Positions 3,081 to 50,202 of a stretch of 64,000 nt of DNA are shown one piece after another (position 1 is the first letter of the stretch; every line of letters begins with the position of its first letter). The notes below the pieces were generated by a model, which was not told where the DNA came from, searched no databases, and saw only the letters and a list, made by a program, of their open reading frames with translations. Both the position numbers and the translations under genes were made by a program. Source of the stretch: Oceanobacillus indicireducens (GTDB lineage: Bacteria > Bacillota > Bacilli > Bacillales > Amphibacillaceae); contig NZ_BMOS01000006.1 in the NCBI RefSeq assembly GCF_014647195.1, positions 1 through 64,000 on the forward strand, given 5' to 3'.

Positions 3081-3220
3081 ACTATATCATAGACAGTAAC
3101 TGGATTCCTTAAAAAATGCTTTAATTCATTATGTACGAAATGATAATATTTGATATAGTAAATAGGCATCTATTCATTATATGTATTACTGTAATAACTC
3201 ATGAACAAGGAGGCTTAACG

Positions 3221-4510
3221 ATGAATCATCAAACATCAGAAAAATTGCATCAAGAAGCATTAGAACATATTGTCGGAGGAGTGAATTCCCCTTCCCGCTC
3301 TTATAAAGCAGTAGGTGGTGGTTCACCTGTCTATATGGATCGTGCTGAAGGTCCTTATTTTTACGATGTCGACGGAAATAAATATATTGATTATTTAGCG
3401 GCATATGGTCCAATCATTACGGGACATGCACACCCACATATAACGAAAACGATTCAAGAACAAGCGGCAAAAGGGGTGCTTTACGGAGCACCAACGAGTC
3501 TTGAAAATAAATTTGCGAAAATGTTAAAAGAGGCAATTCCTTCCCTTGAAAAAGTCCGTTTTAATAACTCGGGAACAGAAGCAGTAATGACAACTATCCG
3601 TGTCGCTCGTGCATATACCGGACGAGATAAAATCATCAAATTCGCTGGGTGCTACCACGGACATTTTGATGCAGTGCTCGTTGAAGCAGGCTCAGGACCT
3701 TCCACATTAGGAACACCGGATTCAGCTGGTGTTCCACAAACAACGGCCAATGATGTCATCACTGTTCCTTTCAATGATTTAGCAGGACTAAAAGAAGCAT
3801 TAGAAAAATGGAAGGATCAAGTAGCTGCAGTTCTTGTGGAACCGATTGTCGGGAACTTCGGAATCGTGACACCACATGACGGGTTCCTTCAAGGCGTAAA
3901 TGACCTTGCCCACGCGGCAGGTGCACTCGTTATTTATGATGAAGTCATTTCTGCATTCCGCTTCACTTATGGAAGTGCCCAGCAAGTGTACGGTGTCGAA
4001 CCGGATATGACAGCAATGGGTAAAATCATCGGTGGCGGCTTGCCAATCGGTGCTTATGGCGGGCGGAAAGATATAATGGAACAAGTTGCCCCGCTCGGTC
4101 CAGCTTATCAGGCAGGCACGATGTCAGGTAACCCGTTATCCATGGCTGCGGGGATTGCCTGTTTGGAAGTGCTTCAAGAAGAAGGTGTTTACGACAGGTT
4201 GGAGAAGCTTGGTGCACAGCTTGAAGCAGGTATTTTAGAAAAAGCAGCGAAACATCAAATTGATATTACAATCAATCGTCTGCGCGGAGCATTAACCGTG
4301 TTCTTCGGTACAGAAGAAGTAACAAACTACGCGGAATCCGAGGCAACCGACGGTGAGGCTTTCGCGAAGTTCTTCCAACTGATGCTACATGAAGGAATAA
4401 ACTTGGCCCCATCGAAATACGAAGCCTGGTTCCTAACGACGGAGCATACAGAGAAAGATATTGATGACACAATCGCAGCTGTTGACCGAGCCTTTGAACA
4501 AATGAGATAA
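3221..4510 (+). CDS. gsaB: Glutamate-1-semialdehyde 2,1-aminomutase
   Basis: 429 residues, class III PLP aminotransferase fold. It converts glutamate-1-semialdehyde to 5-aminolevulinate, the tetrapyrrole precursor. The start is at 3221, behind AAGGAGG; the longer in-frame ORF from 3131 has no ribosome site and would overlap promoter sequence. NNSGTEA (phosphate/PLP site), [24 protein letters not shown] with the Schiff-base Lys, and AGTMSGNPL are typical. Its location next to bcp/ygaD equals B. subtilis gsaB rather than hemL of the main hem operon. Confidence 0.93.
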
Positions 4511-4512
4511 TC

Positions 4513-4652
4513 AAGAGCGGAAACGCCCGTTTAGCGACGTACAGATTGGACTGAGCCGGAGGAGATAAAGGAAACACAGCGACCAAAGGGAGCTGATGTT
4601 GACTTATCGTACGGAGGTAAAGGAAATTCGATAGTCGCTGGACACTGGAGCT
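4513..4652 (+). repeat. R1 long-hairpin element, copy A
   Basis: Starts 3 bp after the gsaB stop. It folds by AGCGAC (4533-4538) with GTCGCT (4634-4639), GATAA with TTATC, and ACACAGC with GCTGATGT around a loop of about 10 nt. Compared with other copies, the AGCAAC/GTTGCT stem is replaced by AGCGAC/GTCGCT, a compensatory change. The outermost stem is degraded here. Confidence 0.7.
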
Positions 4653-4668
4653 AGATGAGATAGAACAA

Positions 4669-4710
4669 AAACAGGAAGAAATCTTTTAACGGATTTCTTC
4701 CTGTTTTTTA
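4669..4710. terminator. Bidirectional terminator between gsaB and ygaD
   Basis: Long inverted repeat AACAGGAAGAAATC / GATTTCTTCCTGTT followed by a T run on each strand. Confidence 0.85.
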
Positions 4711-20671: not shown

Positions 20672-20912
20672 TCAAAGGCGCAAGCGCCCGTTTAGCAACG
20701 TACAAACTGGAGCACTCCGTAATGAGATAAAGGAAACATGCCCCTTTAGGGGTATGCCGCTGTTGGGCTTTAGCCCGTATTTAAGCGGCCCTCCTTCAGT
20801 TCTGAGTTGATGTTGACTTATCGATTGGAGGAGTGTGAAGTTTGATAGTTGCTGGGCGCTGGAGCCGGACGTGGCTAGACCTGGATACCTAAGTTACCAC
20901 AGCATTTTTATT
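20672..20912 (+). repeat. R1 long-hairpin element, copy B
   Basis: Stems: AGCGCCC (20683-20689) with GGGCGCT (20854-20860); AGCAAC (20694-20699) with GTTGCT (20848-20853); CAAACT (20703-20708) with AGTTTG (20839-20844); CACTCC (20713-20718) with GGAGTG (20830-20835). The tip carries additional hairpins CCCCTTTAGGGG, GGGCTTTAGCCC and CCGCT/AGCGG. A conserved tail 'GCCGGACGTGGCTAG' to 'CACAGCATTTTTA' follows. Confidence 0.8.
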
Positions 20913-20933
20913 TTATAGTTTTCCTAAAGAACG

Positions 20934-20976
20934 AAAAAGCAGATTGAGAGTCGTTTCATCTCATCTGCTTTTTTCA
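20934..20976. terminator. Hairpin with T run between R1 copy B and the acyl-CoA synthetase
   Basis: AAAAAGCAGAT / ATCTGCTTTTT with an internal GAGA/TCTC pairing. It could terminate the acyl-CoA synthetase transcript from the right. The 200 bp between it and the gene end hold no clear feature. Confidence 0.55.
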
Positions 20977-28212: not shown

Positions 28213-28567
28213 GATCAAAGGCGTAAGCGCCCTTACAGGCTAGGTTCGCGACGTCCTGTCGCAACGCCTGTACTGGCACATCCTGTGCGTCGTAGCAACG
28301 TACAAACTGTGCCTCCCAGGATGGGAGCTAGTTCGATGTTGCCCCAGGACGGGGCGAACTTAAGCGAACTTCCTTTTTACCGGAATGAGATAAAGGAAAC
28401 ATGCCCCTTTAGGGGTATGCTGCTGTTGGGCTTTAGCCCGTACTTAAGCGGCCTTCCTTTAGTTTTGAGTTGATGTTGACTTATCGATTGGAGGAGTGTG
28501 AAGTTTGCTAGTTGCTGGGCGCTGGAGCCGGACGTGGCTAGCCCGGATACCTAAGTTATCACAGCAT
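28213..28567 (+). repeat. R1 long-hairpin element, copy C (extended)
   Basis: AGCGCCC (28225-28231) pairs with GGGCGCT (28517-28523); the GTAGCAAC/GTTGCT and ACAAACT/AGTTTG stems are kept. Extra hairpins are inserted into the 5' side: GCGAC-GTCCT-GTCGC (28248-28262), GCACA-TCC-TGTGC (28276-28288), CTCCC-AGGAT-GGGAG (28313-28327) and GCCCC-AGGAC-GGGGC (28341-28355). Loops GTCCT and AGGAC are perfectly complementary. The tip hairpins and tail equal those of copy B. Confidence 0.8.
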
Positions 28568-28623
28568 TTTTTATATTATAGTTTCTTATGCATTAAAATA
28601 AGGCAGTCAGACTCCTAACCGCC

Positions 28624-29457
28624 TCATTCGAACGTCTTTTTCCTCCATGCCCGCTCATGCAGAGAAGCGTTTAATACTCCACCAATCAGCACAATCATTC
28701 CAAATAAATAAAACCAGATCATGAGTACAATAACCGTTCCTAGACTTCCGTAGGTTGTTGAATAATTCCCAAGTGTTCCTACATAAAAGGAAAAAGCCCA
28801 AGATACCAATTGAAAGCCGACCGTGGAAAAAAGCGCTCCCCAAACAATATGCCTAAAGTACACCCTCCGATTTGGAGTAAGCCGATACAATGCAACAAGG
28901 ACAATAAAGAAGATAATAGAAGAAGTCACCCAACGAAACGTCTCCCATATTTGCAAGAACTCAGCTGAAAAACCGAGCCAAGAGAAGAAATATTCTCCGA
29001 TCATCTTTCCAAACACCGGTAATAATAATGCAACAATGACGACAAAAAACATCCCAATGGTAAGCAATATGGATAAGAGACGGTAGATGATGAATATTCT
29101 CTTCGGTTTTATCTCATAAGCACGGTTTAATGCTTTCCGGACTGCATTTACCCCGTTAGAAGCTGCCCAGAGTGTACCGATGATTCCTACGGATAGAAGG
29201 CCACCACTTTGAATTTGCAGCATTGATTCAATATTTGACTCGATTAAATCATATACTTGTGGCGGAGCATAATCGACAATGGTTTGTAAAATAACCTCTT
29301 CGTTCAAAGAGAAATAACCGATTAAGTTAAATAAAAACAACAGAAAGGGAAAAAGCGATAAAAGGAAAAAATAAGCTAGCTGTGCCGCCAAGCCAAAAAC
29401 GTCGACTTTTTCCATTCGTTCATAAAATTCTTTTAAAACTGGGATGAGATTTTCCAT
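28624..29457 (-). CDS. yfkH: YihY/BrkB family membrane protein (YfkH type)
   Basis: 277 residues, six membrane helices, YihY (formerly ribonuclease BN) family. Family features include QLAYFFLLSLFPFLLFL near the N-terminus, the SGGLLSVGIIGTLWAASNG segment and a C-terminal GSLGTVIVLMIWFYL. Role unknown; not a nuclease. Size and neighbourhood (yfkD nearby) agree with B. subtilis YfkH. Confidence 0.85.
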   Translation of the reverse strand: MENLIPVLKEFYERMEKVDVFGLAAQLAYFFLLSLFPFLLFLFNLIGYFSLNEEVILQTIVDYAPPQVYDLIESNIESMLQIQSGGLLSVGIIGTLWAASNGVNAVRKALNRAYEIKPKRIFIIYRLLSILLTIGMFFVVIVALLLPVFGKMIGEYFFSWLGFSAEFLQIWETFRWVTSSIIFFIVLVALYRLTPNRRVYFRHIVWGALFSTVGFQLVSWAFSFYVGTLGNYSTTYGSLGTVIVLMIWFYLFGMIVLIGGVLNASLHERAWRKKTFE

Positions 29458-45187: not shown

Positions 45188-45208
45188 CCAAAGTATATGG
45201 AAAGAAGG

Positions 45209-46219
45209 ATGAAGTTGGTTAAACTAGGAATATTAGATTACGCACAAATTGATGAAGGTAGTAACGAAAAAGAAGCGCTGGAGCAAACAGTCGAACTTGC
45301 TCAGTTAGCTGAAAGCTTAGGTTACAACCGCTTTTGGATGGCAGAGCATCACAATGTTCCAGCGTTTGCTGGCAGTTCACCCGAAATGATTATGATGCAT
45401 TTAGCAAACGCTACAAAGCGTATTCGTCTTGGTTCGGGTGGAGTGATGCTCCCCCATTACAGTCCGTTAAAAGTCGCTGAAAATTTCCGGATTCTTGAAG
45501 CATTCCACCCTAACCGTATTGATTTAGGTATTGGCAATACAGTAGGAACGGCTCTCGTCAATCGGGCGATGAATGAAAATAAACGAGAGAAGCTCGACTA
45601 TGAAGCGAGTATCACAGACATTGCAACGTATTTAACCGATGAAGTAAATAACGATCACCGCTTCCATGGACTCTCAGCCAATCCGGTTATCCCAACTGTT
45701 CCAGAAATGTGGCTCCTATCTATGAGTATCCGCACTGCAAAGATAGCTGCAAAGCTTGGAGTAGGATTCACTTACGGATTTTTCCTCCGGGGTACGGACC
45801 GGCTTGATATCGGAATAAAAGCTGTCGAGACATACCGGCGCGAATTCGCCCCATCCAGATTCATGCAAGAGCCTAAAGTTTCTCTTGCCTCTTTTGTTAT
45901 TGCAGCTGAAACAGAAAAGATAGCAAATGAATACCGGCAAGCTTTGGACTTATGGTTGCTCGGAAATGACCGGTTCAGCCAGTTTAAACAGTTTCCATCT
46001 GTTGAAACTGCAAGGAACTACAACTATACAGACGAGGAGAGAGCGCGCATCCAGGCAAACCGCAAACGGATGATAACTGGGGATGTGAAACAAGTGACCA
46101 AACAATTAGACGATCTCATCCGTCTATTTCAGGCCGATGAAGTTTTAATCGTACCACTGCTTCCACATATCACCCTCCGCAAAAAAGTGATCGAACTACT
46201 TGCAGACGCGTATTTATAG
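45209..46219 (+). CDS. Luciferase-like flavin monooxygenase (LLM class)
   Basis: 336 residues, single-domain bacterial-luciferase family. YNRFWMAEHHNVPAFAGSSPE near 45-65 and the RIRLGSGGVMLPHYSPLKVAE block near 75-95 are hallmarks of the YwcH/YtmO branch that uses FMNH2 and oxygen; substrate unknown. The N-terminus is ambiguous: ATG 45209 touches the AAGAAGG site, TTG 45215 has better spacing, and ATG 45197 has none. An R1 element follows 6 bp after the stop. Confidence 0.85.
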   Translation: MKLVKLGILDYAQIDEGSNEKEALEQTVELAQLAESLGYNRFWMAEHHNVPAFAGSSPEMIMMHLANATKRIRLGSGGVMLPHYSPLKVAENFRILEAFHPNRIDLGIGNTVGTALVNRAMNENKREKLDYEASITDIATYLTDEVNNDHRFHGLSANPVIPTVPEMWLLSMSIRTAKIAAKLGVGFTYGFFLRGTDRLDIGIKAVETYRREFAPSRFMQEPKVSLASFVIAAETEKIANEYRQALDLWLLGNDRFSQFKQFPSVETARNYNYTDEERARIQANRKRMITGDVKQVTKQLDDLIRLFQADEVLIVPLLPHITLRKKVIELLADAYL

Positions 46220-46225
46220 TTACAA

Positions 46226-46676
46226 CAAAGGCGGAAGCGCCCTTGCAGGTTAAAAACGCGACGTCCTGTCGCAACACCTGCACTAGCACATCCTGTGCGT
46301 CGTAGCAACGTACAAACTGTGCCTCCCAGGACGGGAGGTAGTTCGATGTTGCCCCAGGACGGGGCGAACTGAACTTAATCGAACTTCCCCTTTACGGAAT
46401 GAGATAAAGGAAACATGCCCTTTTAGGGGTAGACGTGAGTTGGGCTTTAGCCCGAATTTAACCGGCCCTCCTTAAGTTTGGAGTTGATGCCCGCTTTCAC
46501 CACAAGGGTAGAAGGGCGACTAAGCCGCACAAAGACCTCTCGGCAAGTCTTCTTTATCGAGTGGAGGAGTGTGAAGTTTGGGACTGCGCACTGCTCGTCC
46601 CACCAAAAGATCTGCTAGTTGCTGGGCGCTGGAGCCGGACGTGGCTAGCCCCGGATACCTAAGTTATCACAGCATT
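46226..46676 (+). repeat. R1 long-hairpin element, copy D (longest)
   Basis: The same frame as copy C, including hairpins GCGAC-GTCCT-GTCGC (46258-46272), CTCCC-AGGAC-GGGAG (46323-46337) and GCCCC-AGGAC-GGGGC (46351-46365). Two additional inserts are unique: 46490-46558 in the tip, and 'GGGACTGCGCACTGCTCGTC' with 'AAAAGATCTGCT' (from 46579) in the 3' arm. The conserved tail ends in CAGCATTTTTATTTTATAC. Confidence 0.8.
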
Positions 46677-46708
46677 TTTATTTTATACTTTCTTATCTTA
46701 CAAAAAAA

Positions 46709-46743
46709 CGAATAAAAGGCTACTAGCTAGAGCCTTTTATTCG
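46709..46743. terminator. Bidirectional terminator upstream of the 46761 gene end
   Basis: CGAATAAAAGGCT / AGCCTTTTATTCG inverted repeat with T-rich flanks, 17 bp after the hypothetical gene stop. Confidence 0.85.
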
Positions 46744-46760
46744 TTCCAATGAGTTGCGTA

Positions 46761-49587: not shown

Positions 49588-49663
49588 GATTCAACCTCCG
49601 TTCATTACTCTTCTTCCACTAAGTTTATCTCACAAACACGGATATTTCCATTTAAACACACAA

Positions 49664-49816
49664 ACAAAGGCGTAAGTGGCCGTTTAGCAACGTACAAACT
49701 GGAACACTTTGCAATGAGATAAAGGAAACACAGCGACCAACGGGAGCTGATGTTGACTTATCGATTGGAAAAGTGTGAAGTTTGCTAGTTGCTGGCCACT
49801 GGAGCCGGACGTGGCT
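49664..49816 (+). repeat. R1 long-hairpin element, copy E (minimal form)
   Basis: The clearest hairpin: AGTGGCC (49675-49681) with GGCCACT (49794-49800); AGCAAC (49686-49691) with GTTGCT (49788-49793); CAAACT (49695-49700) with AGTTTG (49779-49784); ACACTTT (49704-49710) with AAAGTGT (49770-49776); then GATAA/TTATC and ACACAGC/GCTGATGT around a short loop. Two stems differ from copy B with both sides changed. Confidence 0.85.
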
Positions 49817-49873
49817 GTTCCAGTAATTAAACTGGACCCAAGCTTTAATGTATTATAGTTACAAACACACAAA

Positions 49874-49895
49874 AGGCAAGCGTCAGCGCTCGCCT
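49874..49895 (-). terminator. Terminator of the small GNAT gene
   Basis: AGGC.AGCG / CGCT.GCCT stem followed by TTTTG on the minus strand. Confidence 0.65.
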
Positions 49896-49923
49896 CTTTT
49901 ATATTATTACGATGTCCTATATA

Positions 49924-50202
49924 CTATTGAGCAAGAACATCATGGTATTCTACTGTATCTTCCATTCGTTTCTTGGCAAATACACAAAGGGGTTTAATTT
50001 TTTTATTATGCTCACGAGCGTATAAAACGACTTGTTCCAATAATTCCCCAGCAATCCCCTGACCTCTTAACTCATCAGAGACATAAGTATGATCGATGAC
50101 TACTAATGATCTATTAGATTCCACATATGTTATCTCAGCAAGCGGTGTTTTCACATCTTCGCCTACATAAAACTTATTTCCGGCTTTTTTAATGGTTGTC
50201 AT
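49924..50202 (-). CDS. Small GNAT-fold N-acetyltransferase (COG2388/YjdJ type)
   Basis: 92 residues. The short acetyltransferase fold with VIDHTYVSDELRGQGIAGEL (acetyl-CoA loop RGQGIA) and KIKPLCVFAKKRMEDTVEYHDV at the end, typical of this group. The C-terminal Cys-x-x-A/F-K pattern is usual. Substrate unknown. It is alone between an R1 element and a 340-bp gap. Confidence 0.85.
   Translation of the reverse strand: MTTIKKAGNKFYVGEDVKTPLAEITYVESNRSLVVIDHTYVSDELRGQGIAGELLEQVVLYAREHNKKIKPLCVFAKKRMEDTVEYHDVLAQ

Follow-up and report, generated by a model that had tools for sequence, protein, structure and literature searches.

The window, a stretch of 64,000 nucleotides that opens contig C6 of the 3.87-Mb draft assembly of Oceanobacillus indicireducens, contains five plus-strand copies of a dispersed nested hairpin, at positions 4513, 20672, 28213, 46226, and 49664. 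All five were re-read and are present where the initial annotation had placed them, and the stems it had listed are AGTGGCC/GGCCACT and ACACTTT/AAAGTGT in the copy at 49664, AGCGCCC/GGGCGCT in copies B-D (20672, 28213, and 46226), and AGCGAC/GTCGCT in copy A (4513). The copy at 49664 is the base form, without inserted modules. Its position had been given correctly, but its end had been set too early, at 49816; the element (49665-49862) consists of the nested hairpin at 49666-49816 and a tail that continues for about 46 bp further, to approximately 49862. It is flanked on both sides by AAACACACAAA (plus strand, 49654-49664 and 49863-49873), a putative target-site duplication. Immediately 3′ of it lies a terminator-like hairpin (49871-49900) that comes, on the minus strand, after the open reading frame (ORF) at 49924-50202.

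Copy A (4513-4656) is a base form without the tail, starts 2 bases past the stop codon of the ORF at 3131-4510, and is adjoined by a plus-strand hairpin resembling an intrinsic terminator (4669-4709). Copy B (20674-20926) is tailed, carries one module, M2, in its apical loop (20739-20803), and is adjoined on the plus strand by an A-tract and terminator-like hairpin (20934-20974) that was seen by eye and then located. The tailed copy C (28217-28589) contains three inserted modules: two Rfam matches to Bacillaceae-1 (RF01690), one in the orientation of the element (28233-28289, plus strand) and one opposite to it (28313-28379, minus strand), and a plus-strand M2 (28402-28466). Copy D (46227-46696), also tailed, adjoins the ORF at 45197-46219 on its 3′ side and contains five: Bacillaceae-1 matched by Rfam in the orientation of the element (46243-46299, plus strand) and opposite to it (46323-46394, minus strand), followed on the plus strand by M2 (46416-46480, missed by the module pattern table), M4 (46490-46554), and M3 (46580-46614). 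The five copies are thus unequal in length because three of them hold inserted modules (one at 20672, three at 28213, and five at 46226). On reading, a hairpin comes next after the element in all five copies; that of copy C (28597-28628) is imperfect, with two A-C mismatches seen by eye, and that of copy D, with its A-tract (46708-46744, partly by eye), lacks a T-tract.

In its base form the element is one nested hairpin of approximately 140 bp (about 142 nt), followed in many copies by a tail of roughly 45-60 nt (about 50 bp) that ends near TTATANTTTCYTA. The body of the hairpin is built from six stem blocks, the inner blocks contain symmetrical GA/GA mismatches (by eye), and the inner loop around GAGATAAAGGAAACAC / GATGTTGACTTATC is nearly invariant. 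Small hairpin modules, Bacillaceae-1 included, occupy the internal loops of the element, so that modular inner units stand between fixed ends as in BOX-type repeats. A pattern table scored 15 module combinations, 'none' counted, among 40 copies of the home genome; since the table overlooks some modules, some of these combinations are spurious, and about ten stand on reading. Miniature copies, reduced by loss of the hairpin's inner half but with both ends retained, are seen at L112:4990-5045 and L093:4750-4835, and at L086:1832-2133 one element copy has a tandem trio of Bacillaceae-1 modules in its apical loop.

Bacillaceae-1 has been catalogued as an RNA by Weinberg et al. (excerpts of PMC2864571), and its strand was already in doubt (excerpts of PMC4333381). 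The home genome contains 59 matches to it. Among the fetched loci, a profile count places 14 Bacillaceae-1 copies inside the element in the same orientation, 2 inside it inverted, 34 near it, and 30 without an element nearby, a count in which element copies split by several modules are often not scored as inside. Further copies lie, by reading, within unrelated palindromic repeats. The Bacillaceae-1 'RNA' of Rfam is one of several modules nested in the element, in both orientations; it is a module within the element and within other palindromic repeats, not the element itself. The comparison with Rfam suggested by the initial annotation therefore gave a divided answer, with the nested modules matching Bacillaceae-1 and the hairpin itself matching no family in eight base-copy loci (L009 and L013 at E up to 1, six others at E up to 2). 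A known Rfam RNA is thus ruled out as the identity of the hairpin, as Rfam matches hit the nested modules only. On its opposite strand, M2 (all three window copies) has the layout of Bacillaceae-1 with TAAA loops, and weak Rfam matches of 27-28 bits against a cut-off of 35 back this relation (L029, L044). A second large family of palindromic repeats (GTTCAGTTGCCCGG...CTCCTGCGGG) also bears Bacillaceae-1 modules (L206, L207, L209-L212, L215, L217, L218, L220-L222).

The copy at 49664 folds well below its own shuffled sequences in energy, both as DNA (z -6.4) and as RNA (z -6.3), with none of 200 shuffles equalling it in either case. For the analysis of covariation, 131 full-length copies were reduced to 49 clusters at 90% identity, and 48 of these divergent copies were aligned after exclusion of the long copy L150; structures were obtained with RNAalifold, a method favouring G-U. 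In this alignment 93.8% of cells are paired, and 32 of the 44 stem pairs show changes on both sides (0 of 500 shuffles). Cells changed on both sides number 278 against 71 in shuffled alignments, and the covariation score is 0.370 against 0.143 (0 of 500). Sliding the partners by 1-3 columns brings this score to 0.082 or less and lowers pairing to 25-46%. None of the 500 shuffles attained any of five covariation measures. The covariation expected by the initial annotation is therefore supported across the collected copies, and its reading of paired stem changes as a sign that a folded RNA or DNA hairpin is under selection is borne out by these two-sided changes and by the large excess of G-U over A-C in well-preserved copies (31:6). 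As the paired mutations show, evolution maintains a single-stranded fold, of RNA or of DNA.

Selection for the fold of one strand should leave more G-U pairs than A-C mismatches. These were counted with equal weight in 156 copies (101 once those 95% alike are removed), which were sorted by how many other imperfect pairs they contain, the uncertain block P4 being omitted. Well-preserved copies, with 0-1 other imperfect pairs, have 31 G-U against 6 A-C (P 4e-5), a ratio that does not differ from the 50:5 of the SAM riboswitch (P 0.34; 28 of 30 loci, 27 without near-duplicates). In contrast, more decayed copies, with two or more other imperfect pairs, have 22 G-U and 27 A-C (P 0.57), and the two classes differ (P 3e-4). 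The best element copy per genome gives 35 to 3 (25 of 30 loci). Bacillaceae-1 itself gives 38 to 12 (28 of 30 loci), a ratio unsorted by decay and probably inflated by one constant column. An earlier reading, which denied selection for a single-stranded fold, rested on an unstratified 72:50 against a SAM ratio of 51:5 and is overturned by 35:3 and 31:6. That comparison was unfair because the SAM loci are the best match of each genome and the element copies are not, and 72:50 mixes well-preserved with decayed copies. Well-preserved copies thus bear a signature of selection for the fold of the written strand, whereas decayed ones drift; a minority of copies may decay freely, and the element would then persist through its young copies. 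It is supported that selection acts on the fold of this single strand, as RNA or as single-stranded DNA. G-T pairs hold in single-stranded DNA too, so the G-U excess fits both alike.

In the home genome at least 54 pieces match the element (40 of 82 candidates scored), and 41 stretches were read; since several of these end at contig edges, a number of about 40 copies is a lower bound. The base copy as query has matches in 35 of 58 relatives (9 of 31 genera), and copy A in 119 of 159 genomes of the family (38 of 46 genera). A covariance model finds matches in 158 of 299 sampled genomes of the order and 68 of 116 genera, many of them weak, with best E values of only 1e-4 to 1e-13. Oceanobacillus, Virgibacillus, Siminovitchia, Lederbergia, Rossellomorea, Gracilibacillus, Jeotgalibacillus, and Bhargavaea are among the matches listed. 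The element is therefore widespread across Bacillus-like bacteria, throughout the order. With one copy as query, there were no matches among 72,556 plasmid records or among phage records, so that a plasmid or phage origin has no matching record. No description of the element was found in the open-licence literature of PubMed Central.

The right side of the element is often next to another hairpin. Among 58 recognisably tailed copies, 35 have an A-tract and stable hairpin within 85 nt past the end of the tail, and in 31 of those it begins at 0-9 nt. The same feature occurs in 48 of 687 windows of 85 nt downstream of element-free genes and, when the windows are extended to 160 nt, in 147 of 666, of which 51 are at 0-9 nt; A-tracts with hairpins are thus not rare at ordinary gene ends, and a contig edge accounts for one artefactual control row for these windows (listed at 2020). 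Within 160 nt, 59 of 104 flanks to the right of the element have it, as do 24 of 130 to its left and 41 of 400 random windows. This test replaced a looser fold-based scan (51 of 123 right flanks; 12 sense and 23 antisense among 130 left flanks; 93 of 600 random sites), which had itself replaced a strict terminator search (18 of 104 against 54 of 1500 random sites).

Copies of the element lie mostly between genes. Gene context was taken from simple ORFs for 95 of 131 copies, and these counts, like those of the flanks, include copies related by descent. Where the upstream gene is in the sense orientation, its stop codon is at most 11 nt away in 34 of 57 copies; the upstream gene is antisense in 38 of 95. 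The A-tract and hairpin follow 16 of 21 copies between sense and antisense genes, 16 of 26 between two antisense genes, and 4 of 7 between divergent genes (antisense/sense), with only 6 of 22 between two sense genes and 17 of 28 in unclassified contexts. As copies between two antisense genes are still oriented toward the hairpin, orientation tracks the hairpin and not only transcription. In 17 of the 57 copies with a sense upstream gene, the stop codon precedes AAAGCG by exactly 5 nt, a greater regularity than a random site close to the end of a gene would give. Two copies (L015, L016) adjoin GGGACA/GACCCC palindromes (by eye). In O. senegalensis, a copy on C4 near 2505300 (L059/L067) lies in an rRNA spacer directly past the presumed end of the 16S rRNA gene, where we take GGCTGGATCACCTCCTTTCT to be the 3′ end of that gene.

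That the element is mobile, one of the readings offered by the initial annotation, is supported by one empty site, a second absence in a sister genome, and a surplus of direct repeats at its ends. Four of seven fetched O. profundus copies were compared with a sister genome, G003, which is about 91% identical at one orthologous locus. At L233 approximately 200 bp are missing from the sister genome, leaving an empty site at which the aligned pieces overlap by 9 nt, an overlap within A-rich DNA whose two flanking copies have only 6 nt in common. At L231 the element is absent from the sister genome and the following A-tract and hairpin exist in both. At L232 the sister genome holds an internally deleted copy, not an empty site, and at L230 the copy is intact in both genomes. 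In O. luteolus, the flanks of the window copy at 49664 align, with a spacer too diverged to show the junction. In several copies a motif resembling the end of the tail is also present to the left of the element (L019, L107, L141, L183, L015, L050, L231); that of L231 is missing at the sister site, and the element may sometimes insert with the motif at both ends.

Direct repeats of at least 8 nt at the end of the tail occur in 8 of 82 tailed copies, against a permutation mean of 1.7 and a maximum of 6 in 1000 runs. Lowering the threshold to 7 nt leaves a weak excess (12 against 7.2; 24 of 1000 runs do as well). Examples lie beside the tail end of L016, L134, L070, and L195, and most of the 82 copies lack a clear direct repeat. 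An earlier test that was not anchored to the tail (17 of 93 at 8 nt or more; mean 7.1 and maximum 16 in 100 permutations) was superseded by this one. As an excess of direct repeats, target-site duplication, a trait of miniature inverted-repeat elements (MITEs), is therefore present, and the base form of approximately 140-200 bp is short, has no coding capacity, and exists in many copies, as MITEs do. At least a dozen loci hold tandem arrays of about 150 bp. The spacers within the arrays resemble the left flank beyond shuffled expectation (sum 211 against 132, 0 of 2000), with a few chance matches and within-array pairs included among the 30 spacers.

No transposase and no autonomous partner transposon were found for the element in a search for split copies, in which 32 left ends had no right end in the next 700 nt. 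Two of the 32 have a right end within 5 kb, L168 over masked bases and L178 around an IS3-like element. The latter (L178:5353-7024), presumably an IS3-like insertion sequence, has two ORFs and breaks up an element array. Long terminal inverted repeats are not evident; the inner palindrome is present, and the ends of the tailed unit are just weakly inverted (TAAGAAA-like, by eye). The home genome contains two Y1 transposase genes and matches reverse transcriptase at three places, and neither the element nor Bacillaceae-1 was found at E 10 within 1.5 kb on each side of these loci. The element hence does not flank a Y1 transposase gene as in REP/RAYT systems. One of the Y1 transposases is RAYT-like (253 aa, L309:1465-2226; C2 near 230352) and is flanked by GGGACA...GACCCC hairpins, with which it probably forms an Oceanobacillus REP/RAYT pair of its own. 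A RAYT as mover of the element was rejected, the RAYT-like gene being bordered by these other hairpins.

Group IIC introns insert near intrinsic terminators, and in this they resemble the element; no match to a group II intron was found in the loci searched with Rfam. By comparison with published descriptions, the element may work like the BOX repeats of pneumococcus and bcr1 of B. cereus. BOX of Streptococcus pneumoniae and S. suis appears nearest in organisation, as judged from its description: like the element it is interspersed and hairpin-forming, has variable inner modules between fixed ends, is found with repeats inserted in each other, and prefers positions downstream of genes, and in S. 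suis one inner module (boxB) lies between differing end types (excerpts of PMC3049150). It differs in that its terminal inverted repeats resemble those of ISSpn2 (excerpts of PMC3049150), whereas none are evident in the element; the element, as measured, ranges over an order and has a hairpin 0-9 nt from its end. Nearest in kin and size is bcr1 of the Bacillus cereus group, which as described is 147-167 bp, similar to the length of the element (excerpts of PMC2267715), and is likewise MITE-like, of high copy number, mostly chromosomal, and often in untranslated regions (excerpts of PMC6542083, PMC3446304, PMC2267715). However, bcr1 is associated with TTTAT motifs and, as described, is confined to the B. 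cereus group (excerpts of PMC6542083, PMC3446304, PMC2267715). The element does not have TTTAT at both ends; a TTAT-type motif is at its right end and in just a few copies on the left, where the flanks have a GAACA or AAGA foot. REP sequences, with which Y1 transposases are associated, are also palindromic, extragenic, and of high copy number, but the element is one nested hairpin several times longer than a REP of 20-40 bp (excerpts of PMC3733652).

The initial annotation had offered three readings, a mobile element made of structured RNA, a MITE, and an element of the 3′-UTR that serves processing or protein binding; the nested modules, the tail, and the insertion beside hairpins go beyond what it had noticed. 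Of these readings, mobility is supported, the size, copy number, and duplications are those of a MITE, and a function in the 3′-UTR is ranked as a rival. The repeat is probably a non-autonomous mobile element that inserts with constant orientation immediately 5′ of hairpins with an A-rich foot. The target hairpin would usually be an intrinsic terminator; REP-like palindromes and older copies of the element would serve at times, and insertion beside the latter would produce the tandem arrays. Some insertions would leave direct repeats of approximately 8-12 bp. The enzyme responsible would act on the folded strand, as single-stranded DNA or RNA. We tentatively suggest, as one possible mechanism, that the target hairpin guides transposition: an enzyme that recognises the folded single strand would insert it at the A-rich foot of any hairpin, whether terminator, REP palindrome, or the element itself, so that hairpins would stack and nest and Bacillaceae-1 would be a passenger.

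The strand test bears on the rivals as well, since riboswitch-like G-U in well-preserved copies slightly lowers the probability of a mobile element and of hairpin guidance and raises that of two RNA-based explanations. The fold is kept, with at most 2 imperfect pairs of 37, in 77 of 101 distinct copies, so that a maintained function fits too. Under one such explanation, which seems unlikely, the repeat is an RNA useful to the host, transcribed at gene ends before the terminator, with a hairpin that serves in mRNA protection, mRNA processing, or protein binding. This preservation and G-U tolerance would agree with it, as would the closeness of sense stop codons, the symmetrical G-A mismatches with the nearly invariant inner loop, and the placement of about half of the interspersed repeats of B. 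cereus within mRNAs (excerpts of PMC3446304). Yet the upstream gene is often antisense while copies between two antisense genes remain oriented to the hairpin (16 of 26), and of four O. profundus copies the sister genome has one intact, one internally deleted, and two missing. An origin as a SINE-like retroelement, whose folded transcript a resident reverse transcriptase, such as that of a group II intron, would copy into A-rich sites, is quite improbable. The asymmetric ends, the A-rich direct repeats of variable length, the selection of the fold of the would-be transcribed strand, and the three reverse transcriptase matches in the genome are all consistent with it, but a poly-A or other variable 3′ tract is not seen (by eye) and no copy lies at E 10 within 1.5 kb on either side of the reverse transcriptase loci. 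There is very little chance that the repeat acts as double-stranded DNA, a palindrome to which a protein of the nucleoid, replication, or topology binds and which is occasionally duplicated. Its mostly intergenic position would suit such a role; against this, mismatch tolerance in well-preserved copies is specific to one strand, the junctions resemble insertions, and modules are nested inside.

The contrast between well-preserved and decayed copies implies that strand tests based on G-U and A-C must be sorted by the decay state of the copies before they are interpreted. The annotated RNA family Bacillaceae-1 is now set in the context of a mobile element. Since the probable mobile element is a hairpin spread across the order and has an unusually exact choice of site beside terminators, the search for an enzyme that reads hairpins may become practicable in these bacteria.
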